Source: Pseudoduganella lutea
Lineage (GTDB): Bacteria; Pseudomonadota; Gammaproteobacteria; Burkholderiales; Burkholderiaceae_D
Direction of reading: 5' to 3'
DNA: 64,000 nt
Assembly (NCBI RefSeq): GCF_004209755.1
Contig: NZ_CP035913.1
Span: 434,001 to 498,000 of the forward strand
The translations under genes and the position numbers were made by a program. The notes beneath the pieces are model-generated. The model worked only from the letters and a program-made list of their open reading frames with translations, was not told the DNA's origin and searched no databases. Each line of letters opens with the position of its first letter. Position 1 is the stretch's first letter. Positions 3,810-60,313 of the stretch are shown here, piece by piece.

Positions 3810-3850
3810 CGGCCGCCGTGCTCTGCGCCATGCTGCTCCCGATCCTCTCC

Positions 3851-4861: not shown

Positions 4862-4872
4862 GCGGACTGGCG

Positions 4873-6753: not shown

Positions 6754-6841
6754 ATCCCTGCGAACAATTCCAGTTTTTCAACCAATCGAACACAACGCGC
6801 CGCCAGTGGCGCGCACTCGGCTTTCAAGGAGGAATCACACC

Positions 6842-8866
6842 GTGGACTATCCCCGCCCGCAGATGCGGCGTACCCAATGGCTCAATCTCGACGGCGCATG
6901 GGACGCCATGCTCGACGACCAGGCGCACTATGCCGACCCGGCGACGGTACCGTTCGACCGTACCATCATCGTGCCCTTCCCGCCCGAGGCGAAAGCCAGC
7001 GGCGTGCACGACACGGGCTTCCGCCGGCGCGTCTGGTACCGCCGCGTGGTCGGGCTGGACGACGACAGCCTGGCGCCGGGCCGGGACGAGCGCCTGATGC
7101 TGCATTTCGGCGCGGTCAACCACCGCGCGCGGGTATGGGTCAACGGCCATTTCGCCATCCAGCACAAGGGCGGCCACAGCCCGTTCTCGATCGACATCAC
7201 GCGCTACCTGGTGGCCGGGCAAGGCGAGCGGATCGAGCCGGTCGAAATCATCGTCCAGGCCGAGGACGACCCGACCGACATGCACAAGGTGCGCGGCAAG
7301 ATGGACTGGGAACTCGACCCGCACTCGATCTGGTATCCGCGCACCACCGGCATCTGGCGCACGGTCTGGCTCGAGAAGGTATCGCGTGCCCACGTCGAAC
7401 AGCTGCGCTGGAGCGCCGACGTGGCTTGCTGGCAGATCCACCTGAACGCGCTGGTGTCGCACGTGCCGCCGGACTGCACCCTCAACGTCATCCTGCGCCT
7501 GGGCGACAAGACCCTGGTCAACGACCGCTGCATGCTGACCGGACCGCGGCTGTCGCGCATCTTCCAGCTGCCCGACCCGGGCATCGACGACGCAAGGGCC
7601 GAGTGGCTGTGGAGCCCGGAAAGCCCGCAACTGATCGAGGCCGAAGTCAGCCTGCACGACGCCGACGGTACCCTGCTCGACACGGTGTTCAGCTACACCG
7701 CGCTGCGCACGGTGGGCGTCGACGGCGACCGCTTCGTGCTCAACAGCCGGCCCTACTACCTGCGCATGGTGCTCGACCAGGGCTACTGGCCCGAGAGCCT
7801 GATGGTGGCCTCCAGCGACCAGCTCAAGGAAGACGTCATGCTGATCAAGCGGCTCGGCTTCAACGGCGTGCGCAAGCACCAGAAATCCGAAGACCCGCGC
7901 TGGCTGTACTGGTGCGACGTGCTGGGCCTGTGCGTGTGGGGCGAAATGCCGTCCGCCTATGGTTTTTCCAGCGAGACCGTGCACGGCGTGATGGAGGAAT
8001 GGAAGGAGCTGGTCGAACGCGACATCTCCCACCCCTGCATCGTGGCCTGGGTACCGACCAACGAATCGTGGGGCGTGCCTGAACTCATGTACGACAAGCG
8101 CCAGGTCGACTTCGTGCGCGCCATGTACCACATGACGCGCGCGCTGGACGGCTCGCGTCCGGTGGTCGGCAACGACGGCTGGGAAATGCCGTGCGGCGAC
8201 TTCGTCAACATCCATGACTATCACGCCGATCCCGAAGAGCTGTACGGGCGCTACGGCACGCGCGACAAGGTTGCCTATACGCTCGAACACGTGCGTCCGG
8301 CGCGCCGGCGCCTGGTCATCGACGGCTTCTCGGGTGCCGGCAAGCCGCTGTTCCTCTCCGAGTTCGGCGGCATCGCCTGCCTCGATTCGTCCAAGGAAAA
8401 AGGCTGGGGCTACTCGGTGGCCAAGGACGGGCCGGAACTGCTGGAACGCTACCAGAAGCTGATGGCCGCGATCCACCGCTGCCGTCCCCTGTCGGGTTTC
8501 TGCTACACCCAGCTGACCGACACGTTCCTGGAAAAGAACGGCCTGCTGACCGAGGACCGGGTTCCCAAGGCGCCGATCGCGGCGCTGGCCGAGGCCACGC
8601 GCGGTCCGGAAGCCAACCTGCACGACTGGTACATCGACCCGCTCGGTCACAGCGAGAAGTGGCGCGGCCGCCGCGGCGGCGACTGGGAGCTGGAATGGAT
8701 GCTGACCGGCGCCGAGATGCTGGCCCAGCCCGGCCTGGCGGTCCTGCCTGCCGGGACACCGGCACCGGCGGAGACGGCCGACGTGCTGCCGCCGCTGGAT
8801 CGCCAGCTCGGCGTGGGGCCGGACGATGCGCCGGGCGGCGCCAGGCCCATGGCGAGCCGCCAGTGA
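6842..8866 (+). CDS. GH2-family glycosidase, cytoplasmic
   Basis: Exo-glycosidase of 674 residues starting at GTG 6842 behind a strong AAGGAGG Shine-Dalgarno. The layout is GH2: jelly-roll sugar-binding domain (residues about 1-180), immunoglobulin-like domain, then the TIM barrel. The acid/base Glu is in PTNESWG (about 407) and the nucleophile Glu in FLSEFGG (about 506). There is no signal peptide, in contrast to the two exported GH43 neighbours, so it should act on oligosaccharides brought in by the ABC transporter encoded immediately downstream. With galT and galK in the same run, beta-galactosidase is plausible, but GH2 also covers beta-glucuronidase and beta-mannosidase. The C-terminal 40 residues are low-complexity and Pro/Ala-rich. 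Confidence 0.9.
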   Translation: MDYPRPQMRRTQWLNLDGAWDAMLDDQAHYADPATVPFDRTIIVPFPPEAKASGVHDTGFRRRVWYRRVVGLDDDSLAPGRDERLMLHFGAVNHRARVWVNGHFAIQHKGGHSPFSIDITRYLVAGQGERIEPVEIIVQAEDDPTDMHKVRGKMDWELDPHSIWYPRTTGIWRTVWLEKVSRAHVEQLRWSADVACWQIHLNALVSHVPPDCTLNVILRLGDKTLVNDRCMLTGPRLSRIFQLPDPGIDDARAEWLWSPESPQLIEAEVSLHDADGTLLDTVFSYTALRTVGVDGDRFVLNSRPYYLRMVLDQGYWPESLMVASSDQLKEDVMLIKRLGFNGVRKHQKSEDPRWLYWCDVLGLCVWGEMPSAYGFSSETVHGVMEEWKELVERDISHPCIVAWVPTNESWGVPELMYDKRQVDFVRAMYHMTRALDGSRPVVGNDGWEMPCGDFVNIHDYHADPEELYGRYGTRDKVAYTLEHVRPARRRLVIDGFSGAGKPLFLSEFGGIACLDSSKEKGWGYSVAKDGPELLERYQKLMAAIHRCRPLSGFCYTQLTDTFLEKNGLLTEDRVPKAPIAALAEATRGPEANLHDWYIDPLGHSEKWRGRRGGDWELEWMLTGAEMLAQPGLAVLPAGTPAPAETADVLPPLDRQLGVGPDDAPGGARPMASRQ

Positions 8867-8960
8867 CAGGCAAGGATGCGTGACAGGTCGCGACGGCACG
8901 TCGCGGCGCGCAGCAGGTAGAGAAGAGCCAGAACAGCAACACTACAAGATTGGAGACACC

Positions 8961-10268
8961 GTGACGTTTATCGGAAAATCGCTTGCCGCCCTGCTGGTCG
9001 CGCTATGCGTCCCGGCGCTGGCCCAGGCCAGGCAGCAGGAAGGCGAACAGATCGAAGTCAGGCTGTGGACCTTGCTGAGCGGGGGCGACGGCGCACGCAT
9101 GGCGGCATTGATACAGCAGTTCAACGCCAGCCAGCGCGAGGTGCGGGTGGTCAGCACCACCCTCAAGTGGGGCGAGCCCTTCTACACCAAGCTGATCACC
9201 GCATCGGTGGTCGGCGCCGGCCCGGACCTGGCCACGGTCCACCTGTCGCGCATTCCCAACCTGGCCAGCGGCGGCGTGCTGCGGCCGATCGCCGCGCCGG
9301 AACTGGCGGCCTCCGGGCTGGCCGGCCGGGACTTCTTCCCGCGCCAGTGGCAAAAAGCGCAGTACGAGGGCGACCTGTACGCGGTGCCGCTCGACCTGCA
9401 TCCGCTGGTCCTGTACTACAACAAGACGCTGGCTGGCGAGGCAGGCCTGCTCGACGGCGCCGGCAAGCTGAAACCGATCGAAGGGGTCGATGCGCTCACC
9501 GCAGCCTTCCGCGCCGTCAGGGAACAAACGGGCAAGGCCGGCATGACGATGGAGAGCAGCCAGAGTTCCTACGCCATCTGGCGCCTGTGGCTGTCCATGC
9601 TGGCCCAGCGCAATGTCGCGGTGATCGACCAGGGCCGCTTTACCTACGGGCGCGCCGGCGAGGAATGCCTGGCCCAGGTGGGCGCCTGGTTCGACCGCGG
9701 CTATGCCGTGCCGGGCCTCGATTACGCGGCCTCGACGGCCCAGTTCATGGGCGGCCAGGCCGGCTTCATGATCAACGGCGCGTGGGAAGTGCCGGAAATG
9801 GTGCGCGCCAGTACCGCCGGCACGCTCGGCTTCGACTACGGCATCGTGCCGCTGCCGCGCATGTATGACAACGCCAGCGCCTGGGCCGACTCGCATGCCC
9901 TGGCGATCCCGGTCAACCAGCGTACCCCGATGTCGCCGGCCAAGGCCCGCGCGGTGCTCGGCTTCGCGGCGTTCGTGAGCCGCAATTCGCTGCGCTGGGC
10001 GGAGGGCGGCCACATTCCCGCCTACCGCCCGGTGGCCGAGTCGGCCCAGGCGCGCGCCCTGATGCCCAACGCGATGTATGCGCAAGCCGCGCAGAACGTC
10101 GTGTACGACCCGGACGGCTGGTACCTGGGCGCGGCCGGGCCGCTGCAGGCGATGGCGTCCAAGTTCCTGCCGGCGGCGCTGTCGCGGCAGCTGACGCCGG
10201 CCGAGGCGCTGGGCATGTTCGAGAAAGAAGCCGGGCGCCTGATCAAGAAGCGTCCACCCATCTACTGA
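8961..10268 (+). CDS. Sugar ABC transporter substrate-binding protein
   Basis: Periplasmic binding protein of 435 residues starting at GTG 8961 with a GGAG Shine-Dalgarno. The Sec signal peptide ends near PALAQA. The mature protein has the cluster B/D sugar-binder pattern: EVRLWTLLSGGDG, LITASVVGAGPDLATVHLSR, AVPLDLHPLVLYYNKTLAGEAG and GGQAGFMINGAWEVPE. It is followed 13 bp later by the first permease gene, in the usual order binding protein-permease-permease-ATPase. The probable ligand is a di- or oligosaccharide released by the exported GH43 and other enzymes. Confidence 0.94.
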   Translation: MTFIGKSLAALLVALCVPALAQARQQEGEQIEVRLWTLLSGGDGARMAALIQQFNASQREVRVVSTTLKWGEPFYTKLITASVVGAGPDLATVHLSRIPNLASGGVLRPIAAPELAASGLAGRDFFPRQWQKAQYEGDLYAVPLDLHPLVLYYNKTLAGEAGLLDGAGKLKPIEGVDALTAAFRAVREQTGKAGMTMESSQSSYAIWRLWLSMLAQRNVAVIDQGRFTYGRAGEECLAQVGAWFDRGYAVPGLDYAASTAQFMGGQAGFMINGAWEVPEMVRASTAGTLGFDYGIVPLPRMYDNASAWADSHALAIPVNQRTPMSPAKARAVLGFAAFVSRNSLRWAEGGHIPAYRPVAESAQARALMPNAMYAQAAQNVVYDPDGWYLGAAGPLQAMASKFLPAALSRQLTPAEALGMFEKEAGRLIKKRPPIY

Positions 10269-10281
10269 AGCGGGAACCTCG

Positions 10282-11178
10282 ATGAAACCGAACTTCCATT
10301 CGCCGCCGGCCGGTGCGCGCGCGCGCCGCGAGAACCTGGCCGCGGCCATGCTGCTGGCACCGTTCGCGCTGGTATTCCTGCTGTTTTTCCTGGTGCCCGC
10401 GCTGCAGACGCTGTACCTGAGCCTGACCGAGAGCAGCCTGACCCGCACCAGCGGCTTCGTCGGCCTGGCCAACTACGCCACGCTGGTGCAGGATCCCGGG
10501 TTCTGGGCTTCGCTCGGCAATACCTTTTATTTCGCGTTGCTGACCGTGATCCCGCTGACCGCGCTGGGCCTGGTGATGGCGCTGCTGGTCGAGCACTTCA
10601 CGCGCGCCCGCTCCTGGCTGCAGGGAGCGTTCTTCCTGCCCTTCGTGCTGCCCATCTCGGTGATGACCCTGATCGCCGACTGGATGCTGCAGCCCTCGTC
10701 GGGCATCGTCAATCACCTGCTGGGCACGCAGCGCGCCTGGCTCGCCGACTTGCACTGGGCCATGCCGATGGTGGCCATCGGCACCATCTGGTGGACGGTC
10801 GGCTTCAACATGCTGATGTTCATCGCCGGCCTGCGCAACATCCCGGTCGACCTGTACGAAGCGGCGGCACTCGATGGCGCGCGCGGCTTCACGCTGTTCC
10901 GCCACATCACGTGGCCCGCGCTGCGTCCGGTGGTGGGCACCGCCGTACTGCTGTCGCTGATCGCCTCGCTCAAGATCTTCGGCCAGACCTACATCCTGAC
11001 CACGGGCGGGCCGTTCAATACCACCCGGGTCACCCTTCACTATATGTACGAAACCGCGTTTACCCAGAGCGACGCGGGCTACGCCGCCGCCATCGCCATG
11101 GCCTTCGTGGCCATCGTGATCGCCCTGTCGCTGCTGCAGGGCGGCCTGGTCAGATGGTCGGCAAGGAAACGGGCATGA
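10282..11178 (+). CDS. Sugar ABC transporter permease (MalF/UgpA type)
   Basis: Inner-membrane permease of 298 residues with six predicted membrane segments, the first at LLAPFALVFLLFFLVPAL. The EAA loop that docks the ATPase reads DLYEAAALDGARGFTLFRHI (about residues 192-211). The position between binding protein and second permease, and the length, are standard for carbohydrate uptake family 1 transporters. Confidence 0.94.
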   Translation: MKPNFHSPPAGARARRENLAAAMLLAPFALVFLLFFLVPALQTLYLSLTESSLTRTSGFVGLANYATLVQDPGFWASLGNTFYFALLTVIPLTALGLVMALLVEHFTRARSWLQGAFFLPFVLPISVMTLIADWMLQPSSGIVNHLLGTQRAWLADLHWAMPMVAIGTIWWTVGFNMLMFIAGLRNIPVDLYEAAALDGARGFTLFRHITWPALRPVVGTAVLLSLIASLKIFGQTYILTTGGPFNTTRVTLHYMYETAFTQSDAGYAAAIAMAFVAIVIALSLLQGGLVRWSARKRA

Positions 11179-11196
11179 CAAGCATGCATGACAAGA

Positions 11197-11224
11197 ACGA
11201 CATGAGGAGTACGACATGAGGAGT
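11197..11224 (+). repeat. Perfect 14-bp tandem duplication carrying the permease ribosome-binding site
   Basis: ACGACATGAGGAGT occurs twice head to tail (11197-11210 and 11211-11224). Each copy contains GAGGAG; the second sits 6 bp before ATG 11230. The first copy also has an ATG-Shine-Dalgarno arrangement, so the array duplicates the ribosome-binding site of the second permease. Confidence 0.85.
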
Positions 11225-11229
11225 ACAGA

Positions 11230-12060
11230 ATGAAGCGGCGCAGCAGCATCGGCTGGTCGGCCGTCGCCCTGGTCTCGGCCATCACCCTGGCCGCCCTGTG
11301 GGTGTTTCCCCTGCTGTGGGCGCTCAGTACCGCGTTGCGCCCCGAGCACGAAACGGTCTCCAGCGTGTTCCACTTCCTGCCGCGTACCTGGACCCTGGAG
11401 GCGTTCGCCAAGGTGCTCGGTGCCGGCAACGTGCCGCGCTGGCTGTTCAACAGCGCGGTGGTGGCGGTGCTGGTCACGGTGCTGACCATGGCCCTGAGCC
11501 TGATGGCCGCGTACGCTTTTTCGCAGATGCGCTTTCGCGGGCGCGGCTGGCTGTTCGGCCTTACCATGGTGGCCTTCCTGCTGCCCTTCGAAGCGCTGCT
11601 GGTGCCGCTGTTCCGCACCATGAACCAGCTCGGCCTGATCAACAGCTATGCCGGCATCGTCTTGCCGCAAGTGGTGTCGCCGATGGTGATCTACGTGTTC
11701 AAGCAATTCTTCGACGCCATTCCGAAAGACTTCCGCGAGGCGGCCGTCATCGACGGCGCCTCGCCCGCGCGGGTGTTGTGGAGCCTGTATCTGCCGGTCT
11801 CGGCCAACATCGTCTGGGCCATGGCCATCGTGACCTTCATCGGCGCGTGGAACAACTTCCTGTGGCCGTTCATCATCGTCACGTCGAACGACATGATGAC
11901 CATCCCGCTCGGCCTGACCCAGACCTACGATGCCTACGGCGTACGGTATGCCCAGCTGATGGCGGCGGCCCTGCTGGGTGCCTTGCCGGCGGGCCTGGCG
12001 TATGTGCTGTTCCAGCGCCGCGTGACCCAGGGCTTCCTGGCCGCAAGCGGGCTCAAATAA
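11230..12060 (+). CDS. Sugar ABC transporter permease (MalG/UgpE type)
   Basis: Second inner-membrane permease, 276 residues, six predicted membrane segments starting [20 protein letters not shown]. The EAA loop is [20 protein letters not shown] (about residues 171-190). It pairs with the permease at 10282-11178. The gap between the two holds a duplicated ribosome-binding site. The C-terminus [14 protein letters not shown] is typical of the MalG branch. Confidence 0.94.
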
Positions 12061-12109
12061 GCCTGGCATTTCCTGGGCAATCCCAGTCAATCATCTGTTT
12101 GGAGTCGAC

Positions 12110-13219
<1,110 letters not shown>

Positions 13220-35287: not shown

Positions 35288-36589
35288 TCAGGCGCGGCGC
35301 GCCTTGTCGAGTTCCTTGCCCAGCACCGCCATGGTCTCCGCGTGGCGCCTGCGGGTGAGGTCGCGTGCACGGCCCGCCCTGGCACGGGACTCGGCCGGTT
35401 GCTGCGCCATCTTCAGAACGGCGGCCGGGAATGCCGCCACCTCTTCCTCGACGTCGAAATTGAACAGCCATTCCGACAGGCCGATGTCGTCCCACATGCG
35501 CCCCTTGCTGCTCTGCTCCACCCAGCGGTTAACGATGGCCGGCACACCCAGGCCGATGCACATGATCGGGCTGTGCATCTCGTTGCTGAACATGCCCTCG
35601 CAGCGCTTGTAGACGCCCATCGCCTCTTCCAGCGTCCATGGCCGGTCCAGCCAGACGACCTTGCGCCGGACGTCTTCCGGCAGGTGATCGTAGACCCAGG
35701 TCTTGCCGATCTCCGTCTCGGTCTCGTCCTCGTTGCCGATCAGGATCTTCAGGCCGGTCTGGCGCACCACGGCGACGATCGCCTCGCGCAGCGGCGCATG
35801 GTCGAAATCCTTCATTTCCTCGTTGCGCTGGTGCTGGCGTCCGTCGAAGGCGCGCTTCTTGCGCACGTGCAGCCAGGTCGGCGTATAGCGCTGCTTGGGC
35901 AGGCAGACCATGAACCTGCTGTCGGCCAGCCCCAGTTTCTCCAGCAGCCGCGCCGCCGCCGCGTCGTCGGCCACGTCGGTGGAAAACACCACGTCCGGGG
36001 ACCAGCCCATGATCGGCGCCTTCACCCCGTCCAGCTCGGCCTTCCTGAGCGACACCGAATCGCGGAAGTAGGCAAAGGCGGCGCGCGTCAGCGTGTCTTT
36101 CTCGGCGTTGCCGAAGATCCAGTGGCCGTAGGTCACGCCATACACGCCGAACGGTTTGCCGGTGCGCTTGCTGAACGCTTCCAGGTCCATCCATGCCAGC
36201 GCGTACGGCCCGGAATTGTGCAGCATGAAGTCGGCCGATGCCACGGCCGCCTCCAGTTCCGGCGTCGAGCCGGCGCCATTGGCGTCCAGCTTGCCCTGGG
36301 CAATCTTCAGCTTTGGGAAGCGGTTCGTCAGCATGCGGATTTCGTGCGCCGGGACTTCGTCGTACCACGGCCATAGCGTCACCTCGACCTGCGGCAGGTG
36401 GCGCTCCAGCAGCGCCAGCGCGGCCGGCGTATGCGCCACGTCGCCGATGTTCTCGATCTGCCAGTGCGAGCGCAGGATGATGCGGCGCGGACCGGCGGCG
36501 GCCAGGGCGGCGAAAGGCAGCATCGCCGCGCCGGCGGCGGCGGACAGGACGCCGAGCGCGCGGCGGCGGGATGGCTGGTGCTGGGTCAT
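35288..36589 (-). CDS. Exported polysaccharide-pyruvyltransferase-fold protein, copy 1
   Basis: A 433-residue protein of the PS_pyruv_trans family with a twin-arginine-type signal (QPSRRRALGVLSAAAGAAML). The family start is IENIGDVAHTPAALALLERH and the C-terminal signature region is FSNEMHSPIMCIGLGVPAIVNR. Known enzymes transfer pyruvate from PEP to sugars in the cytoplasm and have Arg-x-His in this region; here it is Glu337-x-His339. Export away from PEP plus this change argues against ordinary pyruvylation. A promoter with the shared CGCAATTG element precedes it, so it is expressed with the glycosidases. A second copy is at 53679-55133. The actual reaction is unknown. Confidence 0.82.
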   Translation of the reverse strand: MTQHQPSRRRALGVLSAAAGAAMLPFAALAAAGPRRIILRSHWQIENIGDVAHTPAALALLERHLPQVEVTLWPWYDEVPAHEIRMLTNRFPKLKIAQGKLDANGAGSTPELEAAVASADFMLHNSGPYALAWMDLEAFSKRTGKPFGVYGVTYGHWIFGNAEKDTLTRAAFAYFRDSVSLRKAELDGVKAPIMGWSPDVVFSTDVADDAAAARLLEKLGLADSRFMVCLPKQRYTPTWLHVRKKRAFDGRQHQRNEEMKDFDHAPLREAIVAVVRQTGLKILIGNEDETETEIGKTWVYDHLPEDVRRKVVWLDRPWTLEEAMGVYKRCEGMFSNEMHSPIMCIGLGVPAIVNRWVEQSSKGRMWDDIGLSEWLFNFDVEEEVAAFPAAVLKMAQQPAESRARAGRARDLTRRRHAETMAVLGKELDKARRA

Positions 36590-36621: not shown

Positions 36622-36655
36622 ATTCTGAAGAGCGCCGCTCCGCCTGGCAATTGCG
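36622..36655 (-). promoter_or_regulatory. CGCAATTG-type promoter of pyruvyltransferase-fold gene 1
   Basis: Minus strand TTTTCGCAATTGCC, in which TTGCCA (36650-36645) is the -35 box; a 17-bp spacer and CAGAAT (36627-36622) follow. Start codon 32 bases downstream. An extra half-site TTTGCGGAA lies about 20 bp upstream. Confidence 0.7.
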
Positions 36656-36695: not shown

Positions 36696-38300
36696 CTATT
36701 CGATGCGCACGCCGTGCACGTGCCGGTTGAAGCGCACCGGGTTGAAGCCGTGCGCGCCCAGGCGCGTCCCACCGGCGCGGATATTGCGCAGCGTGAGGCC
36801 GTGGATCGGCGACTGCTCGGTGCCGACGATATGCCCTTCGTCGGCGAACCACTGGTCCAGCACGATGTCCTCGAAGGTCAGGTCATCGATGCGCCCCGGC
36901 GCGTGGCTGGTATCGAAGCCGAACAGGCCGGCCATGTTGTACGGCACGTTGTTGCTGTTGCCGCTGCGCCGGCGTTCCTCGACGACCAGGTCGCGGATGG
37001 TGATGCCGCGCGCATTCTTGCGCACCCGGCGCGACGGCGTCGAGAACGATTCCAGCACGAACAGCACATGCGCGCCCTCCTTGCCGATCATGTCCACATG
37101 CTCGATCACCAGGTCTTCGACGGGATGCGTGTCGCGGTAGATGTTCTGCACCAGCAGGATGCGGCCCCAGGTGCCGCCCCACACCACGGCGTTGGACACG
37201 CGCGTGCCGCGCCCGCCCTTGGTGACGAAGAAATCGTCGTTGTTGAAGATGAAGACATCGTCGACCACGTTGTGGTCCCCGGTGACCCAGATGCCATCGG
37301 TGCAGCCGTTCCAGCTGACGGTCTTGAAGTTGCGGTACTGGTTGTGATGGGTCGCGTTGCCGCCGCCGTCCTCCAGCGCCACCTGCCAGGTGGTGCTCTG
37401 CACCAGCGTGATGCCTTCCAGCGTGAAGTGGTGCGATCCCTTGCCGCCGATCGCGGGGCGGGTGTACTGCCAGCGCGGATCGACCTTCTCGAACGGCCAT
37501 TCGCCCCCCGACAGCAGGCCGCGCCCGCGGATGGTGATGTGCTCGCTGCCCTCGGCCAGGTCAAAGCGCCCTTCGACGATGGCGCCGGCGGCGATGTACA
37601 CGCGCTCGTGCGACTTCAGGTGCAGCGTGCCGTCGCCGGGCAGGCGGTGCACGCCCGGGCCGAAATAATGGGTGGCGGCGGTGTCGGGCACGTCGGGCGC
37701 ATCGGCGAACAGGAACAGCGGGTCGAGGCGGTCGTTGATCTCGACCGACAGCTTCTGGGCGCGCTGCAGGGTGATGTCGACCGTGCGACCGTCCGCGGCG
37801 ATGACCGCAGGGATCGCGCGGCGCAGCGGGCGGACGGTCACGGTGCGTGCGCGCGCCGCCGGATCGAGCAGCTTGATGCGCACGTCGACCGCCATGCCCT
37901 CGAACGAGAACGGCGAGAACGACGCGGTGCGCAGGTCGGCCTTGCCGGTATCGAGGCGGCCCGGGATCACGCGGGACAGGCCGACCTGCCCGGCCGGTTG
38001 CAGCACGTCGCGCCGCCGCGCCGGGTCGGGATGAAAGAAGTCGTACAGCACCCAGTCGTTGCGCGTCTCGAACACCGTGGCCCGGCGCCACGCGTCTTCG
38101 CCCGCGCCGTGCGGGCGCACCAGCACCTGGTAACGGGCGGAATGGTGCAGGCGTTCGACGCTGGAAAGGTCGGCCGGGTAGGACGGCACGTGCAGGGCCG
38201 CGGCGCCCGCGGGCACCGCCGCCAGCATCGCCAGCGCCCACAGCCAGCGGCCGATGATGTGCCGGGCCAGGAATTGCCAAGTCAGGAAGTGCAGGGTCAT
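36696..38300 (-). CDS. Exported right-handed beta-helix glycoside hydrolase (GH28/GH49-like)
   Basis: A 534-residue protein with a Sec signal peptide (ALAMLAAVPAGAAA). Residues about 40-200 form a beta-sandwich; from about 210 a parallel beta-helix begins (GVHRLPGDGTLHL, HERVYIAAGAIVEG, ITIRGRGLLSGGEW). The catalytic region has NGCTDGIWVTG and IFNNDDFFVTKGG, resembling the TDG and DD-K positions of GH28 polygalacturonases and GH49 dextranases, but the GHG and RIK motifs of GH28 are not evident. It probably cleaves a polyuronide or glucan backbone. Its promoter carries the shared CGCAATTG element. Confidence 0.78.
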   Translation of the reverse strand: MTLHFLTWQFLARHIIGRWLWALAMLAAVPAGAAALHVPSYPADLSSVERLHHSARYQVLVRPHGAGEDAWRRATVFETRNDWVLYDFFHPDPARRRDVLQPAGQVGLSRVIPGRLDTGKADLRTASFSPFSFEGMAVDVRIKLLDPAARARTVTVRPLRRAIPAVIAADGRTVDITLQRAQKLSVEINDRLDPLFLFADAPDVPDTAATHYFGPGVHRLPGDGTLHLKSHERVYIAAGAIVEGRFDLAEGSEHITIRGRGLLSGGEWPFEKVDPRWQYTRPAIGGKGSHHFTLEGITLVQSTTWQVALEDGGGNATHHNQYRNFKTVSWNGCTDGIWVTGDHNVVDDVFIFNNDDFFVTKGGRGTRVSNAVVWGGTWGRILLVQNIYRDTHPVEDLVIEHVDMIGKEGAHVLFVLESFSTPSRRVRKNARGITIRDLVVEERRRSGNSNNVPYNMAGLFGFDTSHAPGRIDDLTFEDIVLDQWFADEGHIVGTEQSPIHGLTLRNIRAGGTRLGAHGFNPVRFNRHVHGVRIE

Positions 38301-38333: not shown

Positions 38334-38368
38334 ATTGTGGGGAGCTTGCCGCGGCCCTGCAATTGCGA
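38334..38368 (-). promoter_or_regulatory. CGCAATTG-type promoter of the GH28/49-like gene
   Basis: Minus strand ATATCGCAATTGCAG: -35 TTGCAG (38362-38357), 17-bp spacer, -10 CACAAT (38339-38334), start codon 33 bases on. A second CGCAA lies 9 bp upstream of the core and AAAGCATGAA 13 bp upstream; the latter also precedes the GH27 element. Confidence 0.7.
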
Positions 38369-40807: not shown

Positions 40808-40845
40808 TATCGCAATTGACCTGGCACGACCGGCATCGCTAGGCT
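40808..40845 (+). promoter_or_regulatory. CGCAATTG-type promoter of the GH36 gene
   Basis: ATATCGCAATTGACC: -35 TTGACC (40816-40821), 18-bp spacer, -10 TAGGCT (40840-40845), start codon 30 bases on. It shares AATATCGCAATTG with the GH28/49-like promoter. Confidence 0.7.
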
Positions 40846-46970: not shown

Positions 46971-47006
46971 AGTCTGCGCACCCACCGCGCCCTTGGCAAT
47001 TGCGAA
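46971..47006 (-). promoter_or_regulatory. CGCAATTG-type promoter of the GH27 gene
   Basis: Minus strand TGTTTTCGCAATTGCCA: -35 TTGCCA (46999-46994), 17-bp spacer, -10 CAGACT (46976-46971), start codon 36 bases on. AAAGCATGAA lies 15 bp upstream of the core, as at the GH28/49-like promoter. Confidence 0.7.
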
Positions 47007-47082: not shown

Positions 47083-47141
47083 AAATCGCAACGAAACGTC
47101 CAGAAAACGCAATTGAGCTTTGTCGCCGGCCGGGCCAGCAT
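47083..47141 (+). promoter_or_regulatory. CGCAATTG-type promoter of the second GH3 gene
   Basis: AAAACGCAATTGAGC: -35 TTGAGC (47113-47118), 17-bp spacer, -10 CAGCAT (47136-47141), start codon 29 bases on. A direct repeat AAATCGCAA (47083-47091) lies exactly 21 bp upstream of AAAACGCAA (47104-47112), the usual spacing of AraC-family half-sites. Confidence 0.75.
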
Positions 47142-51436: not shown

Positions 51437-53566
51437 ATGCGCACCATCCTGTACGGACTCGCCCTGAGTGCCGGCATCGGCATGCCGGCACTGGCCGCGG
51501 CACCGCAGCCGGCCGGCGGCACGCCCGCCGCCACGGCGCCCGCCGCTGTGCCGAAAGCCACCGAGATCGCCGCCGCCATCGAGCGCACCGTCGCCTGGCA
51601 ACTGGCCAACCCCAGCGGCACCGCCATGCGGGACTGGGTGATCGCGCCGTTGTACGATGGCCTGATACAGGCCGCGCTGGCGACCGGGCGGGCGCACTAC
51701 CTGGTGCCGGTGCTGCGGATGGGCCAGCAGTCCGGCTGGACCCTGGGTTCGCGCGGCCGCTTCGCCGACGACCACGCGGTGGGCCATGCCTGGCTCGACC
51801 TGTACCTGATGAATCCGCGCCGCACCGAGCGGCTGGCGGCGATCCGCGAGCAGATGAGCGGGATCGTCGACAACCCGATCGCCGAGAAGCTGGTCTACCA
51901 CCACACGCCCGCGACGCCCGGCGTGAGCTTCGTGGACCGCTGGACCTGGTCCGATGCGCTGTACATGGGCCCGCCCGTGTTCGCGCGGCTGTACAGCGCC
52001 ACGGGCGACGCCAAGTACCTTGCCTTCATGGACCGCGAATACCGCGCCGCCGTCGATGCCCTGTACGACCGCGGCGAGCACCTGTTCTACCGCGACTTCA
52101 ACTTCATCGACAAGCGCACCGCGCATGGCAGGAAGGTGTTCTGGAGCCGCGGCAACGGCTGGGTATATGCCGCCCTGCCGCAGATCCTCACCTACCTGCC
52201 GAAGAACCATTCCAGCCGCGGCTATTACGAGGCACTGTTCCGCGACATGACGATCGGCATCCTGAAGACCCAGCAGGCGGATGGCCTGTGGCGCCCCAGC
52301 CTGCTCGATCCCGAGGAAGTGCCGATCGGCGAAACCTCCGGCAGCGGCTTCTTCGTCTACGGACTGGCCTGGGGCATCAACCACGGCCTGCTGGACCGGG
52401 CCGCGACCTGGCCGGCGCTGGCGCGCGGCTGGGCGGGCCTGATGACGCGCGTGCGGTCGGACGGCTACGTCGGCTATGTGCAGCCGATCGGCTCTGCGCC
52501 GCGGTCGGAAGAGGCCTACCTGACCGTCATGCCGGACGGGACGAAGGTGCATGCGCCACCCAAGCCGCGCGTGCTCGACCCCGACTCGACCCAGGACTAC
52601 GGAACGGGCGCGTTCCTGCTGGCCGCCAGCGAGATGCTGCGCCTGGCCGGCGGTGCAAGGTCGGTCAAGCCGGCCGCGCTGCTGGCCGATGCCGAAGCGC
52701 GCCTGGCCAGGGAAGCCCAGCAGCCACGCGCCTATGCGCGGGTGGTGCCGGAACGGATGGACGACCTGGCCTGGGAAAACGACAAGGTGGCCTTCCGCAT
52801 GTATGGTCCGGCGCTGCGCGCGGGCCCGGAAGACAGCGGCATCGACGCATGGTTCAAGAAGGTGCACTACCCGGTGCTGGACAAATGGTATGGCCTGGCC
52901 ACCGGCAAGCAGCAGAAGAGCTACCACGTCGACCGGGGCGAAGGCTACGACGCCTACCACGTCGGCGACACGCGCGGCGTGGGCGGCCTGGGGCTGTGGG
53001 TCGATGGCAGGCTCGTCACCTCCGACACGTTCGTGAAGGGCCATGTGCACTGGAGCAAGGCCGACGTGGCCGAGTTCTCCAACATCTTCGAATACCCGAT
53101 CAAGATCGACGGCAAGCCGGTCTACGAGCACCGTTATTCGCGCCTGAAGATGGGCGAACGCATGACCGAGATCCGCTCGTTCTTCTCGCATTCGCAAAGC
53201 CTGTACGATTCGCATCCGATCCGCGACTTCCCTTACGAGGTGGCGATCGGCCTGGTGACGCAGGATGCGCGCCGGGCGGAGGTGGTGCTGGACGGTCCGC
53301 GTGGCCTGATCGCCGTGACCGAACCGGTCGACGGCAAGCCGTTCGGGGCCGGCGTGGTGATCGACCCGGCGCGCGTGGTGCGCACCGCCAGGCTGGCAGC
53401 CGCGGACAAGGAAGGCAAGCATGCGCACGGCCTGGTCTTCACCCGCGTGGACGACGCCGGCTACGTGAAGTATCGCAGCGGCTTCGCCTGGAGCGGCGAC
53501 GGCGAGATCACCCGGCCGGCCGAGTGGCTCGACTACCTGGCGCGCCAGGCTGGGCGACGGCCCTAG
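51437..53566 (+). CDS. Exported GH105-DUF4861 fusion enzyme
   Basis: A 709-residue protein with a Sec signal (LALSAGIGMPALAAA). Residues about 35-410 form an (alpha/alpha)6 GH105 barrel with the catalytic-type Asp in RFADDHAVGHAW (about 112) and WTWSDALYMGPP (about 173), and FWSRGNGWVYAAL; GH105 removes 4,5-unsaturated galacturonate or glucuronate from lyase products. Residues about 430-705 match DUF4861 (YARVVPERMDDLAWENDKVAFRMYGPAL and VDRGEGYDAYHVGDTRGVGGLG), a beta-rich domain with no assigned activity known to me. The fusion puts DUF4861 into uronide processing. ATG 51437. Confidence 0.88.
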   Translation: MRTILYGLALSAGIGMPALAAAPQPAGGTPAATAPAAVPKATEIAAAIERTVAWQLANPSGTAMRDWVIAPLYDGLIQAALATGRAHYLVPVLRMGQQSGWTLGSRGRFADDHAVGHAWLDLYLMNPRRTERLAAIREQMSGIVDNPIAEKLVYHHTPATPGVSFVDRWTWSDALYMGPPVFARLYSATGDAKYLAFMDREYRAAVDALYDRGEHLFYRDFNFIDKRTAHGRKVFWSRGNGWVYAALPQILTYLPKNHSSRGYYEALFRDMTIGILKTQQADGLWRPSLLDPEEVPIGETSGSGFFVYGLAWGINHGLLDRAATWPALARGWAGLMTRVRSDGYVGYVQPIGSAPRSEEAYLTVMPDGTKVHAPPKPRVLDPDSTQDYGTGAFLLAASEMLRLAGGARSVKPAALLADAEARLAREAQQPRAYARVVPERMDDLAWENDKVAFRMYGPALRAGPEDSGIDAWFKKVHYPVLDKWYGLATGKQQKSYHVDRGEGYDAYHVGDTRGVGGLGLWVDGRLVTSDTFVKGHVHWSKADVAEFSNIFEYPIKIDGKPVYEHRYSRLKMGERMTEIRSFFSHSQSLYDSHPIRDFPYEVAIGLVTQDARRAEVVLDGPRGLIAVTEPVDGKPFGAGVVIDPARVVRTARLAAADKEGKHAHGLVFTRVDDAGYVKYRSGFAWSGDGEITRPAEWLDYLARQAGRRP

Positions 53567-53678: not shown

Positions 53679-55133
53679 ATGCACCAACCCAACCACACCC
53701 GTCGCCTGCTGCTGGCGGCACTCGGCGCCGCCGGCACGCTGCCCGCGGCCTTCGCCGCCAGCCCCGCGCGCCGCCCCGTCATCCTGTGGCGCAATGCCTG
53801 GAACACCAACAACATCGGCGACATCGGCCACGTGCCGGGCGCCCTGGCCCTGCTGCGCCATTACATTCCCGAGGCGAAGGTCATCCTGTGGGCGCACAAG
53901 GACCTGGTGATCCGCGGTGAATACGCCGCGCTGGGCCGGGTGGCCGACGGCGCGCTGGATGCCGGCACGGTCAGCCGCAAGGTGATCCCCGACCTGCACG
54001 TGGTGCGCGGCGAACTGGATGCCAACGGCCGTGCCGACAATCCCGCGCTGGACGCGGCCGTTTCCGCCGCCGGCCTGATGGCGATCGGCTCCGGCGCCGG
54101 CATCCTCGAGCCGAATGCGCTGCTGCGCTTCACGCGCCGCACCGGCAAGCCGATGGGCATGTTCGGCATCACCACCGACCCGTTCAACTTCAGCAATTTC
54201 CACGACGGCGAAGCGAGCCCCGACGTGCAGGCGCTGCGCGCGGCCAGCTTCGTGTTCACGCGCGAGCGCACCTCCTTGCGCGTCCTGCGGGGCGAGGACG
54301 TCGACGGCCCGGACGGCGCTTCGCCGGACCGGCCAGACACCCCCGTCAACGAAGCCATCAACCGCAAGGCGACCGGCATCGACCTGTCCGGGGTGCCGGC
54401 CGCCTTCGTTCCCGACACGACGTTTGCCTTCGCCGCGCGCGACGAGGCGCGCGCCCGCGTGTTCCTGCAGACGCACGGACTGGCATCGGGCAAGTTCATC
54501 TGCGTGGTGCCGCGCCACCGCTGGACCCCGACAGGCACGCCGACCCGCCAGGGCGATTCGCGGGATGCCTACAATGCGCTGTACTTCGAACGGGACTGCG
54601 CCGCGCTGCGCACGGCCATCGTGGCCTACGTGCGCCAGACCGGCAACAAGGTGGCGCTGGTGCCCGAAACGGTCTACGTGGTCGCGCACCTGGATGCCAT
54701 GCTGCGCGACGGCCTGCCGGCCGACGTCGCCGCGAAGGTGGTGACGCGGCGCGACTACTGGCTGCCGGACGAGGCGCAATCCGTGTTCGCCCATGCCCAG
54801 GCCGTGGTCAGCATGGAGAACCACTCGCCGATCCTTGCGGCGGCCGCCGGCACCCCGTTCGTCATGGTGCACCAGCCGGAAGACTCGTTCAAGAGCGACA
54901 TGTTCGCCGACATCGGCCTGGGCGACTGGTATATCGAAGACATCAACCGCGCCGGCGGCGCCGACGTGGCCGATGCGCTGATGCGTATCGTGACGGACCT
55001 GCCGGCCGCCCGGCGCCGCCTGGCCGGCGCCATGGCCCTGGTCGAGGAACGCCACCAGTTCGGCATGCAGCGCCTGCGCCAATTGCTTGCCCTGCCGCCG
55101 TCGCGCGCGCCGCGCTACCGGGTGCGAGCCTGA
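53679..55133 (+). CDS. Exported polysaccharide-pyruvyltransferase-fold protein, copy 2
   Basis: A 484-residue paralogue of the protein at 35288-36589. The signal is twin-arginine-like (NHTRRLLLAALGAAGTLPAAFA). The family opening reads NTNNIGDIGHVPGALALLRHYIPEAKVILW, and the late signature VVSMENHSPILAAAAGTPFVMVHQPEDSFKSDMF keeps the donor-site His (His382) but has Glu380 where Arg is usual, the same change as copy 1. It lies between the GH105-DUF4861 gene and a LacI gene. Exported, with an altered donor site, inside a degradation locus: likely a new hydrolytic or lytic activity, perhaps on pyruvylated or uronic sugars; unproven. Confidence 0.8.
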   Translation: MHQPNHTRRLLLAALGAAGTLPAAFAASPARRPVILWRNAWNTNNIGDIGHVPGALALLRHYIPEAKVILWAHKDLVIRGEYAALGRVADGALDAGTVSRKVIPDLHVVRGELDANGRADNPALDAAVSAAGLMAIGSGAGILEPNALLRFTRRTGKPMGMFGITTDPFNFSNFHDGEASPDVQALRAASFVFTRERTSLRVLRGEDVDGPDGASPDRPDTPVNEAINRKATGIDLSGVPAAFVPDTTFAFAARDEARARVFLQTHGLASGKFICVVPRHRWTPTGTPTRQGDSRDAYNALYFERDCAALRTAIVAYVRQTGNKVALVPETVYVVAHLDAMLRDGLPADVAAKVVTRRDYWLPDEAQSVFAHAQAVVSMENHSPILAAAAGTPFVMVHQPEDSFKSDMFADIGLGDWYIEDINRAGGADVADALMRIVTDLPAARRRLAGAMALVEERHQFGMQRLRQLLALPPSRAPRYRVRA

Positions 55134-55266: not shown

Positions 55267-56286
55267 ATGATGCGCAAGGCAGTCACGTTGCAGCAGGTAG
55301 CCGATGCGGCCGGCGTGTCGCTGAACACAGCATCGCGCGCGATCCGTGCCGACCGCTATGTTTCCGACGAGGCGCGCGCGCGCGTCCAGGAAGCCGCCGA
55401 GCGGTTGCAGTATCGTCCCAATGTGCTGGCCCGGCGCATGCGCGGCGACAAGGCACGCCTGCTGGGCATCTTCGTCAATGCGATCGGCTGGGGCGTCGTG
55501 CACGAGCTGGTCGACCACATCAGCGAGGAGGCGCGCCGCCTCGACTTCGACCTGGTGGTGTTCTCGGCCCAGAACTTCCATGACCGCCGCCGCATCGGTA
55601 CCAGCGACCTGCTGGCCGACCTGTGCGACGGCCTGCTGATGCTGCTGCCCAATCGCGAAGACAAGATCCTCGACGTGCTCGAACGGGAGCGCGGCAACTG
55701 CGTGCTGGTCAGCTTCGCCGCGCGCGAGATCGGCCTGCCGGTGGTCTCGGTGGACAACCGCGCGGGCGGGCGCACGGCCACCGAGCACCTGCTGGGCCTC
55801 GGCCACCGGCGCATCGCCTTCATCCACGGCAGCCATGCCACCGGCCAGAGCACCGAGCGCCAGAAAGGCTATGTCGATGCACTGGAAGCGGCCGGCATTG
55901 CGCCCGATCCCGCCCTGATGGTGCTGGGGAACTTCAATCCCGTCGAAACCCGCGCCGCCACCACCGACCTGCTCGACCTGGCCGAGCCGCCCACCGCCAT
56001 CTTTGCCGCCAACGACGGCATGGCGCTCACCGTGCTGGAAGTGCTGCGTGCACGCGGCCTGGCCGTGCCGGCTGACATTTCCGTGATCGGCTTCGACGAC
56101 ATGCCCCTGGCCAGCTATGCGCAGCCGCCCCTGACCACCCTGCGCCAGCCTTCGCACGACATCGCCGTGCGCGCCGTGCACCGGCTGCTGGCCATGATCG
56201 ACGGCGAGCCGTTCGATCCGGCGCGCGAGCTGATCGCGGCCGAACTGGTGGTGCGCGCATCCACCGGCCCGCTCCGGCGAAACTGA
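55267..56286 (+). CDS. LacI-family transcriptional regulator
   Basis: A 339-residue repressor. The helix-turn-helix reads VTLQQVADAAGVSLNTASRAI (about residues 6-26) and the hinge RPNVLARRMRG; the ligand domain includes GHRRIAFIHGS, PTAIFAANDGMALTVLEVLR and VIGFDDMPLASYAQPPLTT. It precedes an MFS transporter by 30 bp, so the two form a transcript. A LacI-style operator (TGGTAACGTTCC) lies in the control region of the XylR-type gene at 61700, a plausible target. Its effector is likely a uronic-acid or oligogalacturonide sugar, from context. Confidence 0.93.
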   Translation: MMRKAVTLQQVADAAGVSLNTASRAIRADRYVSDEARARVQEAAERLQYRPNVLARRMRGDKARLLGIFVNAIGWGVVHELVDHISEEARRLDFDLVVFSAQNFHDRRRIGTSDLLADLCDGLLMLLPNREDKILDVLERERGNCVLVSFAAREIGLPVVSVDNRAGGRTATEHLLGLGHRRIAFIHGSHATGQSTERQKGYVDALEAAGIAPDPALMVLGNFNPVETRAATTDLLDLAEPPTAIFAANDGMALTVLEVLRARGLAVPADISVIGFDDMPLASYAQPPLTTLRQPSHDIAVRAVHRLLAMIDGEPFDPARELIAAELVVRASTGPLRRN

Positions 56287-57681: not shown

Positions 57682-57731
57682 GGCACCAACCAGATTTCGC
57701 AATTGCCGGGCAAGCCGCCAGGCCGCAGACT
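57672..57731 (+). promoter_or_regulatory. CGCAATTG-type promoter of the second GH105 gene
   Basis: ATTTCGCAATTGCCG: -35 TTGCCG (57703-57708), 17-bp spacer, -10 CAGACT (57726-57731), start codon 36 bases on. A half-site AAATCGC (57672-57678) lies 22 bp upstream, within the end of the MFS gene. Confidence 0.7.
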
Positions 57732-57767: not shown

Positions 57768-59027
57768 ATGGATCATGCACCTATGCCCGTCACCGATTCA
57801 TCCATCCCGCTTTCCCCTGCACGCCGGCCGCGTGCCCCGCGCCGTGCCTGCCGTGGCGCCGGCACGTTGCTGCTGATGCTCCTCGCCCTGCAGGCGCCGG
57901 CGGCCACGGCGGCCACCTCGGCGCAGCCGACGCTCGCACCGGACGCCGTACTCGCCCTCGCCGAGCGTGCCGCCGACTACCAGCTGGCCAGCATGGCGGC
58001 CGGCTGGGTGCCGGCCAACGCCGCCTACGAAACCCCGGACAGGAAGGGCTGGGTGCAGGGTGCGTTTTTCGTCGGGCTGACCGACCTTGCCGCGCGCAGC
58101 AGCCGCCCGATCTATCGGCAGACGATTTTGTTGCGGGGCATCGCCAATGAATGGAAACTGGACGAGCGCCTGTACCATGCCGACGACCAGGTGATCGGCC
58201 AGTCCTATATATGGGCCGCCGCCAACGGCGCCGGCCCTGAGGCGCTGGCGCCGAGCCGCAAGGCACTTGACCAGATCCTCGAGAAGCGTCCGCGCGTGCC
58301 GCTGGGATTCTTCACCGAAGCCGGCGTCGATTGCCAGACCCGCTGGTGCTGGTGCGACGCGCTGTTCATGGCGCCGCCACTGTGGGCGCAGATGAGCCGC
58401 GCCACCGGCGACACCCGCTACGCCAGCTTTGCCAAGGAAGAGCTGAAGGTCACCACCGATTACCTGTTCGACCCGAAGGAGCACCTGTACTACCGCGACT
58501 CGCGGTTCTTCGACCGGCGCGGCCCGGATGGCGAAAAGATCTTCTGGAGCCGCGGCAACGGCTGGGTGTTCGCCGGCCTCGCGCGCACGCTGGAGGCGCT
58601 GCCGAAAACCGATCCGGGACGGGGCGCCATCGAGACCACGTTCCGGCAGATGGCCGCCAGGCTGCGCGGCATCCAGAAACCCGATGGTTACTGGAGCCCC
58701 TCGCTGCTGGGCAATCCGGCAAAGTCGCTGCCCGAATCCAGCGGCACCGCCTTCTACACGTATGGCTTCGCCTGGGGCATCCGCAATGGCCTGCTCGATC
58801 GTGCCGGCTACGAGCCGGTGGTGCGCCGCGGCTGGCGCGCGTTGACGGCATCGGTCCACCCCAGCGGCAAGGTCGGCCACGTGCAGCCGATCGGCGACAG
58901 TCCGGACAACGTCACTCACGACGATACCCAGTATTACGGCGTCGGCGCTTTCCTGATGGCCGCCACGGCCGTGGCCGACCTCAAGCTAGACGCCTCGAAC
59001 CAACCCTCCAAAGCAACCAGCAAATGA
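57768..59027 (+). CDS. Exported GH105 unsaturated glucuronyl/galacturonyl hydrolase
   Basis: A 419-residue enzyme with a long, Arg-rich signal peptide ending ALQAPAATAA. The (alpha/alpha)6 barrel has the active-site regions YHADDQVIGQSYIWAA (about residue 139), TRWCWCDALFMAPPLWAQ (about 197) and FWSRGNGWVFAGLAR, and ends HDDTQYYGVGAFLMAATAV. It removes the unsaturated uronic acid left by polysaccharide lyases. ATG 57768 is chosen because the predicted transcription start is near 57738; ATG 57783 is an alternative. Its stop overlaps the DUF2264 gene start (ATGA), so the two proteins are made together. Confidence 0.9.
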   Translation: MDHAPMPVTDSSIPLSPARRPRAPRRACRGAGTLLLMLLALQAPAATAATSAQPTLAPDAVLALAERAADYQLASMAAGWVPANAAYETPDRKGWVQGAFFVGLTDLAARSSRPIYRQTILLRGIANEWKLDERLYHADDQVIGQSYIWAAANGAGPEALAPSRKALDQILEKRPRVPLGFFTEAGVDCQTRWCWCDALFMAPPLWAQMSRATGDTRYASFAKEELKVTTDYLFDPKEHLYYRDSRFFDRRGPDGEKIFWSRGNGWVFAGLARTLEALPKTDPGRGAIETTFRQMAARLRGIQKPDGYWSPSLLGNPAKSLPESSGTAFYTYGFAWGIRNGLLDRAGYEPVVRRGWRALTASVHPSGKVGHVQPIGDSPDNVTHDDTQYYGVGAFLMAATAVADLKLDASNQPSKATSK

Positions 59028-60313
59028 CGAACATTCCCATGCAAGACCAGCCACCCAAACGCCGCTTGTTCCTTGGCGGCCTTCTCGCCGGTTCAGCCGC
59101 CCTGACCGCCGGATTGCCGCTGTCGGCACTCGCCGCCGGCACGCAGGCATCGCCGCCGGCGCGCCAGTACCTGGTGAAGCTGCTCGAACGCATCGCCGAG
59201 CCGGTGTTCAGCGCCATGGCCGAAGGCAAGCTGAAACAGACCTTCGAGCTGGAGCTGTCGCCCACCTGGGACGGCCGGCCGAAGGAAGTCGCCTATCTCG
59301 AGTGCTTCGGCCGCCTGCTGTCGGCCTGCGCGCCATGGTTCGCCCTGCCCGACGACGACAGTGCCGAGGGCAGGAGCCGCAAGCGCCTGCGCCAGCTGGC
59401 CCTGAAGAGCCTGGCGCACGCGGTCGACCCGGCCAGCCCGGACTTCCTGCTGTGGCAGGGACCGCCCCAGGTGCTGGTCGATTCGGCCTATATCTCGAGC
59501 GCCATGCTGCGCGCCCCCGCCGCGCTGTGGGAACCGCTCGATGCCGCCACCAGGGGGCGCATCGTGGAGGTGATCAAGGGTATCCGCAGTATCGAGTCGG
59601 CCCATACGAACTGGCTGCTGTTCGCCTCGATGAACGAAGCGTTCCTGCTGTCGGTGGGCGAAAAATACGACCCGCTGCGCCTGACCACGGGCGTGCGCAA
59701 GATGCGCGAATGGTATGTGGGCGATGGCTGGATCAAGGATGGCGACACCTTCCACTTCGACTACTACAACGCCTTTGTCATCTATCCGATGCTGGTGACC
59801 GTGCTGCAGACCATGGTCAGGTACAAGGCCAGTTACTGGGGCGCCGCGCCGGCCGACCTGCTGGCCCAGGCTACCCGGCGCATGCAGCGCTACAGCGAGC
59901 ACCTGGAACGCTACATCTCGCCCACCGGGACCTACCCGCCGATCGGCCGTTCGATCACCTATCGCACCGCGGCGTTCCAGCCGCTGGCCTTCCTGGCGCT
60001 GCACAGGCTGCTGCCCGCCAGCCTGCCCGAAGGCCAGGTGCGCGCGGCGCTGGAGGCGGTGCACCGGGCCATCTGGACGCCGGCCGGCAATTTCGGCAAG
60101 GGTGGTTTCCTCACCATCGGCTTCGCCGGCCACCAGCCCACGCTGGGCGACTGGTATTCCAACACCGGCAGCATGTACATCGCCGCGGAAAGCCTGATCA
60201 CGCTGGGACTGCCGGCCAGCGACAGCTACTGGACCGCGCCGGCCCTGGACTGGACCCAGAAGAAAGCCTTCGCCAACCAGCCCTTCCCCAAGGACTACCA
60301 CGTCGACTATTGA
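59024..60313 (+). CDS. Exported DUF2264 protein, probable glycoside hydrolase
   Basis: A 429-residue protein with a twin-arginine-type signal (PPKRRLFLGGLLAGSAAL). The sequence has the DUF2264 pattern: RQYLVKLLERIAEPVFSAMAEGKL, EVAYLECFGRLLSACAPWF, DGWIKDGDTFHFDYYNAFVIYPML and IGRSITYRTAAFQPLAFLAL, an alpha/alpha-barrel-type enzyme fold. I recall that part of this family has been placed in a CAZy glycoside hydrolase family acting on uronic acids, but cannot verify it here. The start ATG overlaps the GH105 stop. Co-translation with GH105 suggests action on the same acidic oligosaccharide. Transcription ends at strong hairpins downstream. Confidence 0.85.
   Translation: MTNIPMQDQPPKRRLFLGGLLAGSAALTAGLPLSALAAGTQASPPARQYLVKLLERIAEPVFSAMAEGKLKQTFELELSPTWDGRPKEVAYLECFGRLLSACAPWFALPDDDSAEGRSRKRLRQLALKSLAHAVDPASPDFLLWQGPPQVLVDSAYISSAMLRAPAALWEPLDAATRGRIVEVIKGIRSIESAHTNWLLFASMNEAFLLSVGEKYDPLRLTTGVRKMREWYVGDGWIKDGDTFHFDYYNAFVIYPMLVTVLQTMVRYKASYWGAAPADLLAQATRRMQRYSEHLERYISPTGTYPPIGRSITYRTAAFQPLAFLALHRLLPASLPEGQVRAALEAVHRAIWTPAGNFGKGGFLTIGFAGHQPTLGDWYSNTGSMYIAAESLITLGLPASDSYWTAPALDWTQKKAFANQPFPKDYHVDY

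Follow-up and report, generated by a model that had tools for sequence, protein, structure and literature searches.

The polysaccharide pyruvyltransferases CsaB of Paenibacillus alvei, Pvg1p of Schizosaccharomyces pombe (Protein Data Bank (PDB) entry 5AX7) and WcaK of Escherichia coli are the closest described systems to the protein reported here. Passages of the accounts of CsaB and Pvg1p (PMC10435577, PMC4872226) place docked phosphoenolpyruvate (PEP) in a site made by R148, R306, H308 and K328 of CsaB, equivalent to R217, R337, H339 and K361 of Pvg1p. According to the same passages, the CsaB mutants R148K/Q, H308A/R and R207D are inactive and H308K/S and K328R are active, R306 lies outside the 12 mutants made, and expression of Pvg1p R217A and R337A failed; the claim that the donor-site arginine (CsaB R306/Pvg1p R337) is essential rests there on docking and conservation. 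We analyzed a 64,000-nucleotide stretch of the Pseudoduganella lutea genome (NZ_CP035913.1, positions 434,001 to 498,000; hereafter the window), in which a minus-strand open reading frame at 35288-36589 (ATG at 36589, stop ending at 35288) encodes a 433-residue protein of the same family with glutamate in the column of this arginine. The branch of PF04230 to which it belongs is large and, it seems, unstudied, and the protein probably breaks a polysaccharide bond instead of adding pyruvate.

Donor site and signal of the Pseudoduganella protein

The 433-residue protein matches PF04230 with 56.2 bits, against a gathering cut-off of 25.3 (Pfam). At E values up to 1, its Pfam matches comprise PF04230 and a sub-cut-off match to DUF6525, with none to the UDP-N-acetylglucosamine (UDP-GlcNAc) 2-epimerase family, and NCBIfam gave no family for it at E up to 0.001. 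The motif SNEMHSP occupies residues 335-341 and contains Glu337 (codon at 35579-35581, minus strand, as for all codons below) and His339 (35573-35575); that these numbers equal those of R337 and H339 in Pvg1p is a coincidence. Calling family members E-type or R-type by their residue in this column, we aligned profiles of 71 E-type and 15 R-type sequences with hhalign (probability 96.5, E 8e-10), which set E337 on WcaK R335, H339 on WcaK H337, and R176 (36062-36064; CsaB R148/Pvg1p R217) on WcaK R183. The WcaK lysine column (canonical CsaB K328) holds Ser360, and the near-invariant Lys362 (35504-35506) follows two residues later. Two of the four PEP-site residues are thus kept, one is glutamate and one is shifted. 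A further near-invariant arginine, R234 (35888-35890), lies in a loop that follows the opening strand of domain 2, possibly the loop of CsaB R207, a match that is uncertain in the alignment. CsaB positions were read through a CsaB-like Paenibacillus protein (L116), which, at a single offset, is identical to CsaB at the seven positions compared as far as residue 207, including R148 and R207; the spacing of R306, H308 and K328 was matched by eye.

The protein therefore shares with CsaB, Pvg1p and WcaK the PF04230 domain, a GT-B-like (glycosyltransferase B) fold, an N-x-G-D motif, the arginine of CsaB R148 and the histidine of CsaB H308. It differs from them in its glutamate for CsaB R306, its lysine shifted by two residues, new residues E287 (35729-35731) and R234, a predicted signal peptide and a degradative gene context. 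By the arginine test, as judged from sequence, it is not a CsaB-type transferase, though it belongs to the same sequence family.

The N-terminus, MTQHQPSRRRALGVLSAAAGAAMLPFAALA-AAGP, holds a twin arginine, a hydrophobic stretch and an AxA-like site at the motif level, which are the features sought for export by the twin-arginine translocation (Tat) pathway. Together with the class given by our heuristic (see below), they predict a Tat-type signal at residues 1-30, with A28-L29-A30 as the cleavage site (36500-36589, minus strand). An earlier note, made from the DNA letters, had described this frame as an exported member of the pyruvyltransferase family with glutamate for the donor-site arginine, and its coordinates, motif, family assignment, twin-arginine signal and Arg-to-Glu substitution all stand. 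Its term "charge reversal" overstates the change in the pocket, which retains residues equivalent to CsaB R148 and H308, has R234 and K362 near, and gains E287 and E337.

The E-type clade and its fold

The window encodes a second E-x-H protein (53679-55133, plus strand; 484 residues, PF04230 at 33.2 bits), which is 35% identical to the first, reads SMENHSP and also has a Tat-type signal. A third PF04230 member of the same 7.5-Mb genome reads TRLHG and is without evident signal. Among 7999 candidates scored, 1186 were relatives of the first protein, and 488 among 7997 were relatives of paralogue 2; the best 120 of each were used. In a collection of species genomes, 480 of 497 pattern-matched stretches encode a relative; the best 80 were kept, and the gene finder called the target gene in 74 of these loci. 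These 240 homologues and 74 locus targets were aligned with 59 family members that the Pfam model had identified in genomes (373 sequences in all), and two alignments drew on the best 120 homologues, A2 with 71 of them and A1 with 31 plus the paralogue. Bacteroidota, Verrucomicrobiota, Planctomycetota, Paenibacillus and further groups contain relatives; where a listed relative has a source name, that name is polysaccharide pyruvyl transferase or hypothetical.

Position 337 was Glu in 236 of the 238 homologue rows that cover it, with one Asp and one Arg, the latter in a poorly aligned fragment. These rows came from E-type queries, and they speak for constancy to as low as about 35% identity and not for the frequency of Glu in the family. 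Within the 59 genome-derived members the column read R in 20, E in 22, S in 12, K in one and A in one, with three gaps, and Glu was restricted to the E-type clade. The Arg-x-His that the earlier note gave for characterized members is found in CsaB, Pvg1p and WcaK, and is not family-wide. Constancy extended well beyond this column: of the 332 rows with Glu337, all had E287 and D199 and 330 each had H339, R234 and K362, while R176 was Arg in 329/329 rows having a residue there. The polar or aromatic positions conserved in at least 97% of these rows are W43, N47, D50, H53, W73, S126, R176, S180, D199, R234, N256, D263, E287, W318, E337 (by definition), H339, K362 and W374. Glu at position 287 was present in 5 of 20 R-type rows. 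In a quick maximum-likelihood tree of 99 rows (93 different; several are identical, and R-type branches are long), all 62 E-type rows fell on one side of a single branch (Shimodaira-Hasegawa-like approximate likelihood ratio test 100, stem 2.28), and R-type (20 rows), Ser-type and other rows fell on the other.

Two further observations concern the family at large. Members with serine in the arginine column (for example, GSSLHGRIV; 12/59 aligned members) came from same-family genomes, at 12 loci among L095-L112, and several of them begin with a ILFGAFDRHNFGDLLFPH-like sequence. A Runella genome (L076; G120:C1:933396-938506) carries four tandem E-type genes after SusD/TonB-type genes, and one of the four, an E-P-H variant, branches separately.

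The AlphaFold2 model of the 433-residue protein (mean predicted local distance difference test (pLDDT) score 93.6) has alternating strands and helices in two halves. Structure comparison with Foldseek and VIA-align gave a GT-B-like fold, with many GT-B enzymes among the matches listed; UDP-GlcNAc 2-epimerases and other GT-B enzymes in the best 50 rows were 7-14% identical to the protein. Pvg1p (5AX7) was not among the best 50 rows of either search, and residue equivalences were for this reason taken from the profile-profile alignment. In the model, the second-half strands 226-230, 281-284, 332-335 and 351-355 precede R234, E287, E337/H339 and K362, respectively. Such strand ends face the cleft in GT-B enzymes. 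A PDB sequence search returned alcohol dehydrogenase as its best match (E 0.024 with the protein, 0.045 with the 71-row profile), which we did not take as a relative, and a single-sequence model of paralogue 2 (pLDDT 36) was not used.

Signals were called with our own heuristic rather than a trained predictor; it flags 4 of 20 R-type rows, WcaK included, and thus over-calls, so that single calls are unsafe. By this measure, the 120 rows found with the first protein divide into 88 Tat-like, 8 Sec-like (general secretory), 4 lipoprotein-like and 20 without signal, and some signal was called for 60/74 locus targets and 94/120 rows found with paralogue 2. Five loci from Gram-positives and two rows from actinobacteria, all of them E-x-H, had no apparent signal. 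The pairing of export with E-x-H drawn in the earlier note does not hold across the clade, of which E-x-H is the mark whether or not a signal is present. This distribution would suit an enzyme whose location follows that of its substrate, the periplasm in diderms and the cytoplasm in Paenibacillus. The gene for the first protein was found in 1 of 60 genomes searched in the genus and in 1 of 399 searched in the order, its own genome included in each. As it was unseen in the 59 other genus and 398 other order genomes, it was probably acquired by transfer.

Proposed reaction and alternatives

Scanned neighbors at 33767-60313 are mostly of degradative families, which does not describe a glycan biosynthesis locus: they include glycoside hydrolases (GH) of families GH39, GH3 (two), GH8 and GH88 (two, one with DUF4861), α-galactosidase types PF02065 and PF16499, beta-helix proteins and DUF2264. 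The GH88 + DUF4861 gene (51437-53566, plus strand) lies directly before paralogue 2. A GH88 gene of the unsaturated uronyl hydrolase family (57876-59027, plus) is followed by the DUF2264 gene (59024-60313, plus), whose PDB relatives are 8oi4 (the best match, named β-galactosidase) and the glucuronate dehydratases 9o4u and 9nwf. From this PDB match, DUF2264 is taken to be the former GH154 family. Passages of PMC12269599 report that a member of that family dehydrates terminal glucuronic acid (GlcA), priming it for GH88, and argue that the family consists of dehydratases. This dehydratase and GH88 remove acidic termini and share neighborhoods with E-type genes in part of the loci; they would be partners of E-type proteins, not relatives, being of different protein families.

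We measured co-location in 13 genomes with 21 E-type genes over a 5-kb range, leaving out 18 of 120 GH88 matches that were weaker than 3e-7; one of these (G120:C1:939025) adjoins the Runella array. Under an expectation that assumes uniform placing and leaves general sugar-gene clustering uncorrected, DUF2264 lay near an E-type gene in 4/15 cases (0.03 expected, binomial p 2.5e-8) and GH88 in 5/102 (0.21 expected, p 2.7e-6), one of the five being a fusion itself. Near the 10 non-E PF04230 genes of the same genomes, the counts were 0/15 for DUF2264 and 1/102 for GH88. The fusion is a single 805-residue frame of Paenibacillus harenae (L075:9992-12409) that joins an E-type domain to GH88, with DUF2264 as the next gene. 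Of 169 operon-partner proteins (same strand, gaps below 150 bp), 81 were scanned, mostly from Bacteroidota and Paenibacillus; 7 loci and proteins of up to 120 residues were excluded, and Verrucomicrobiota and Planctomycetota contexts were thinly covered. Among the 81 were ABC-transport genes, including ABC permeases (4), as well as SusD (3), TonB-receptor plug (2), GH92 (3), GH88 (3), DUF2264 (3), GH10 (3), the GH38 C-terminal domain (3) and PF04230 itself (3).

Together, sequence and gene context support well that the fold has been recruited to polysaccharide breakdown, as the earlier note had proposed, and over a wider range of organisms than one locus could reveal. A catabolic, PEP-independent enzyme is likewise well supported by sequence. 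The best overall explanation, with a probability of roughly 0.55, is that this catabolic PF04230 branch hydrolyzes an acidic sugar cap. We infer hydrolysis of such a cap because two carboxylates would stand beside kept anion-binding residues in the donor pocket. In the mechanism we propose, the protein would act where imported or extracellular oligosaccharides are, namely in the periplasm or outside the cell in diderms and in the cytoplasm in the Gram-positives checked. The former PEP pocket in the GT-B cleft would no longer accept PEP. Arg176 and His339, both kept, may bind the carboxylate of the acidic cap together with Arg234 and Lys362, and Glu337, in place of the arginine, could form with Glu287 the acid/base pair that hydrolyzes the bond. 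Because the Arg and His of the pyruvyl-donor site are kept, the most specific single reaction we can name, and we name it tentatively, would hydrolyze a pyruvate ketal carried by a terminal sugar. With the same reserve, the clade may consist of dedicated pyruvate-ketal removers, in which a pyruvyltransferase fold exchanged arginine for glutamate, gained a second carboxylate and was sent to the periplasm.

The next candidate reaction would hydrolyze a glycosidic bond that leads to or from an acidic sugar; it would fit the neighbors about as well, and we regard it as possible and somewhat doubtful. Here the clade would be a new GT-B-fold glycoside hydrolase family that cuts a sugar-sugar bond, as opposed to a ketal, beside a uronic acid. 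One such bond could hold a cap at O4 of GlcA, whose loss would let the DUF2264 dehydratase and GH88 take the GlcA. The GH88 and DUF2264 neighbors in part of the loci, the readying of terminal GlcA for GH88 by the dehydratase (described in passages of PMC12269599), the tandem paralogues and the two constant carboxylates would all suit such a family, to which, like the ketal removers, the same doubt attaches. No row among the best 50 of each structure search was named a glycosidase, however, and the kept PEP-site Arg and His would have no special reason unless the substrate carries a carboxylate. If E337/E287 and H339 instead abstracted and delivered protons, the GT-B cleft could perform an elimination or dehydration, by analogy with the structurally similar UDP-GlcNAc 2-epimerases, which carry out an elimination with UDP; we consider a lyase or dehydratase of this kind improbable, as a family role and as a single reaction alike. 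A lower place goes to an exported, non-catalytic glycan-binding protein. The predicted signals, the linkage to polysaccharide genes and a GT-B cleft that could hold sugars would accommodate it; against it, the 18 polar or aromatic positions kept in at least 97% of 332 rows, two carboxylates among them, look catalytic. Least probable of all is an enzyme that still transfers pyruvate from PEP, before export or in the cytoplasm, with Arg234, Arg176 and Lys362 binding PEP so that Glu337 is tolerated. PF04230 membership, the kept equivalents of R148 and H308, the cytoplasmic Gram-positive members that could encounter PEP and the loss of the arginine in other branches speak for it; the signals called in most diderm members by the heuristic, the degradative context, the clade-wide Glu and a separate RLH copy in the same genome speak against it.

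Several points weigh against hydrolysis of an acidic cap, and against the ketal in particular. The proximity of E287 to E337 would follow from strand order in the model only. Non-Arg residues at position 337 also occur in other branches (S 12, K 1 and A 1 of 59), so that loss of the arginine alone is not diagnostic. The co-location expectation carries the uniform-placing assumption given above, and for 15 of the 21 E-type genes, among them that of the first protein, both GH88 and DUF2264 are absent from the 5-kb range. No PF04230 domain occurs in the best 120 of 445 GH88 relatives, which leaves the fusion as one case; in the same 120, GH88 is joined to DUF2264 in 14. Four tandem E-type copies, as in Runella, would suit a diversified glycosidase family equally. 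We know of no pyruvate ketals in land-plant pectin, and a gene resembling Pel9A shares the upstream element described below. Passages on the xanthan cluster of Paenibacillus taichungensis I5 list GH9, GH38, GH92, two GH88 and two polysaccharide lyases of family PL8, and the term "pyruvyl transferase" is absent from the paper's available text, though xanthan is pyruvylated. Xanthan as a general substrate, raised by the recurring GH88, GH38 and GH92, was set aside, since what is available on that cluster mentions no such gene.

For catabolism of pyruvylated glycans, a described enzyme of similar purpose is PvGal-ase, which differs, according to passages of PMC6090015, in being a GH1 β-galactosidase that releases intact pyruvylated galactose and does not remove the ketal. 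In titles, abstracts and passages of the open-license literature, we found no description of an exported PF04230 protein or of one linked to a polysaccharide utilization locus. The name polysaccharide pyruvyl transferase puts a biosynthetic label on an apparently degradative enzyme. If the proposed role is true, the breakdown of acidic polysaccharides includes a widespread step that was overlooked, and GT-B gains a secreted catabolic branch.

A shared upstream element and other genes

The earlier note had also proposed that an element co-regulates the first protein with secreted glycosidases, and a motif scan supports a shared element at the motif level. CGCAATTG occurs at 8 sites in the window against 4.05 expected, a count reached by 4 of 100 shuffles. 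Seven of these fall in 33767-60313, where the intergenic share is 5.7%: five are intergenic, another lies within a gene and the last sits in a frame 27 bp past its called start; the eighth site, outside this region, is inside a gene. The intergenic sites lie 59 bp upstream of the start codon of the first protein (36648-36655, minus strand), upstream of 36696-38300 (38360-38367, minus), between the divergent GH3 and melibiase-type (PF02065) genes (40811-40818, plus), upstream of the second GH3 gene (47108-47115, plus) and upstream of the GH88 and DUF2264 genes (57698-57705, plus). The site just past a called start belongs to the 5' end of the PF16499 (α-galactosidase A) gene (46997-47004, minus).

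A pattern derived from the same sites, WWWCGCAATTGMC, matches 9 times across the 7.5-Mb genome, with 5 matches in the cluster, and its reversed control matches once. Among the cluster matches, one falls within a gene and another is the PF16499 site just described. The four matches elsewhere comprise one upstream of a Pel9A-like gene, one in a gene and two without a clear target. The Pel9A-like beta-helix gene, which lies about 30 kb beyond the window with a Pec_lyase-type gene nearby, has its WWWCGCAATTGMC match about 157 bp upstream; this gene (L145:1150-4602, own genome), with CGCAATTG upstream, possibly belongs to the same regulon. Regulation by the element would be consistent with its placement, and a LacI-like regulator (55267-56286, plus), recognized by sequence judgement, is a candidate reader.

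The 534-residue protein of 36696-38300 matches no Pfam family at E values up to 1 and has a weak similarity to isopullulanase (E 8e-4). In other genomes, the genes directly upstream of E-type genes at L010:7917-9839, L012:3701-5635, L013:8368-9858 and L017:7744-9909 match no Pfam family at E values up to 0.001, and those of L010 and L012 share one recurring cluster. A Bacteroidales metagenome-assembled genome from roe deer rectum has a glycyl-radical (pyruvate formate lyase-like) gene (L017:12074-14449) that is the second gene downstream of one of E-type. Within the window, sequence starts suggest another sugar-type cluster at 1817-13219, in which a LacI-like regulator and an ABC ATPase would be encoded.
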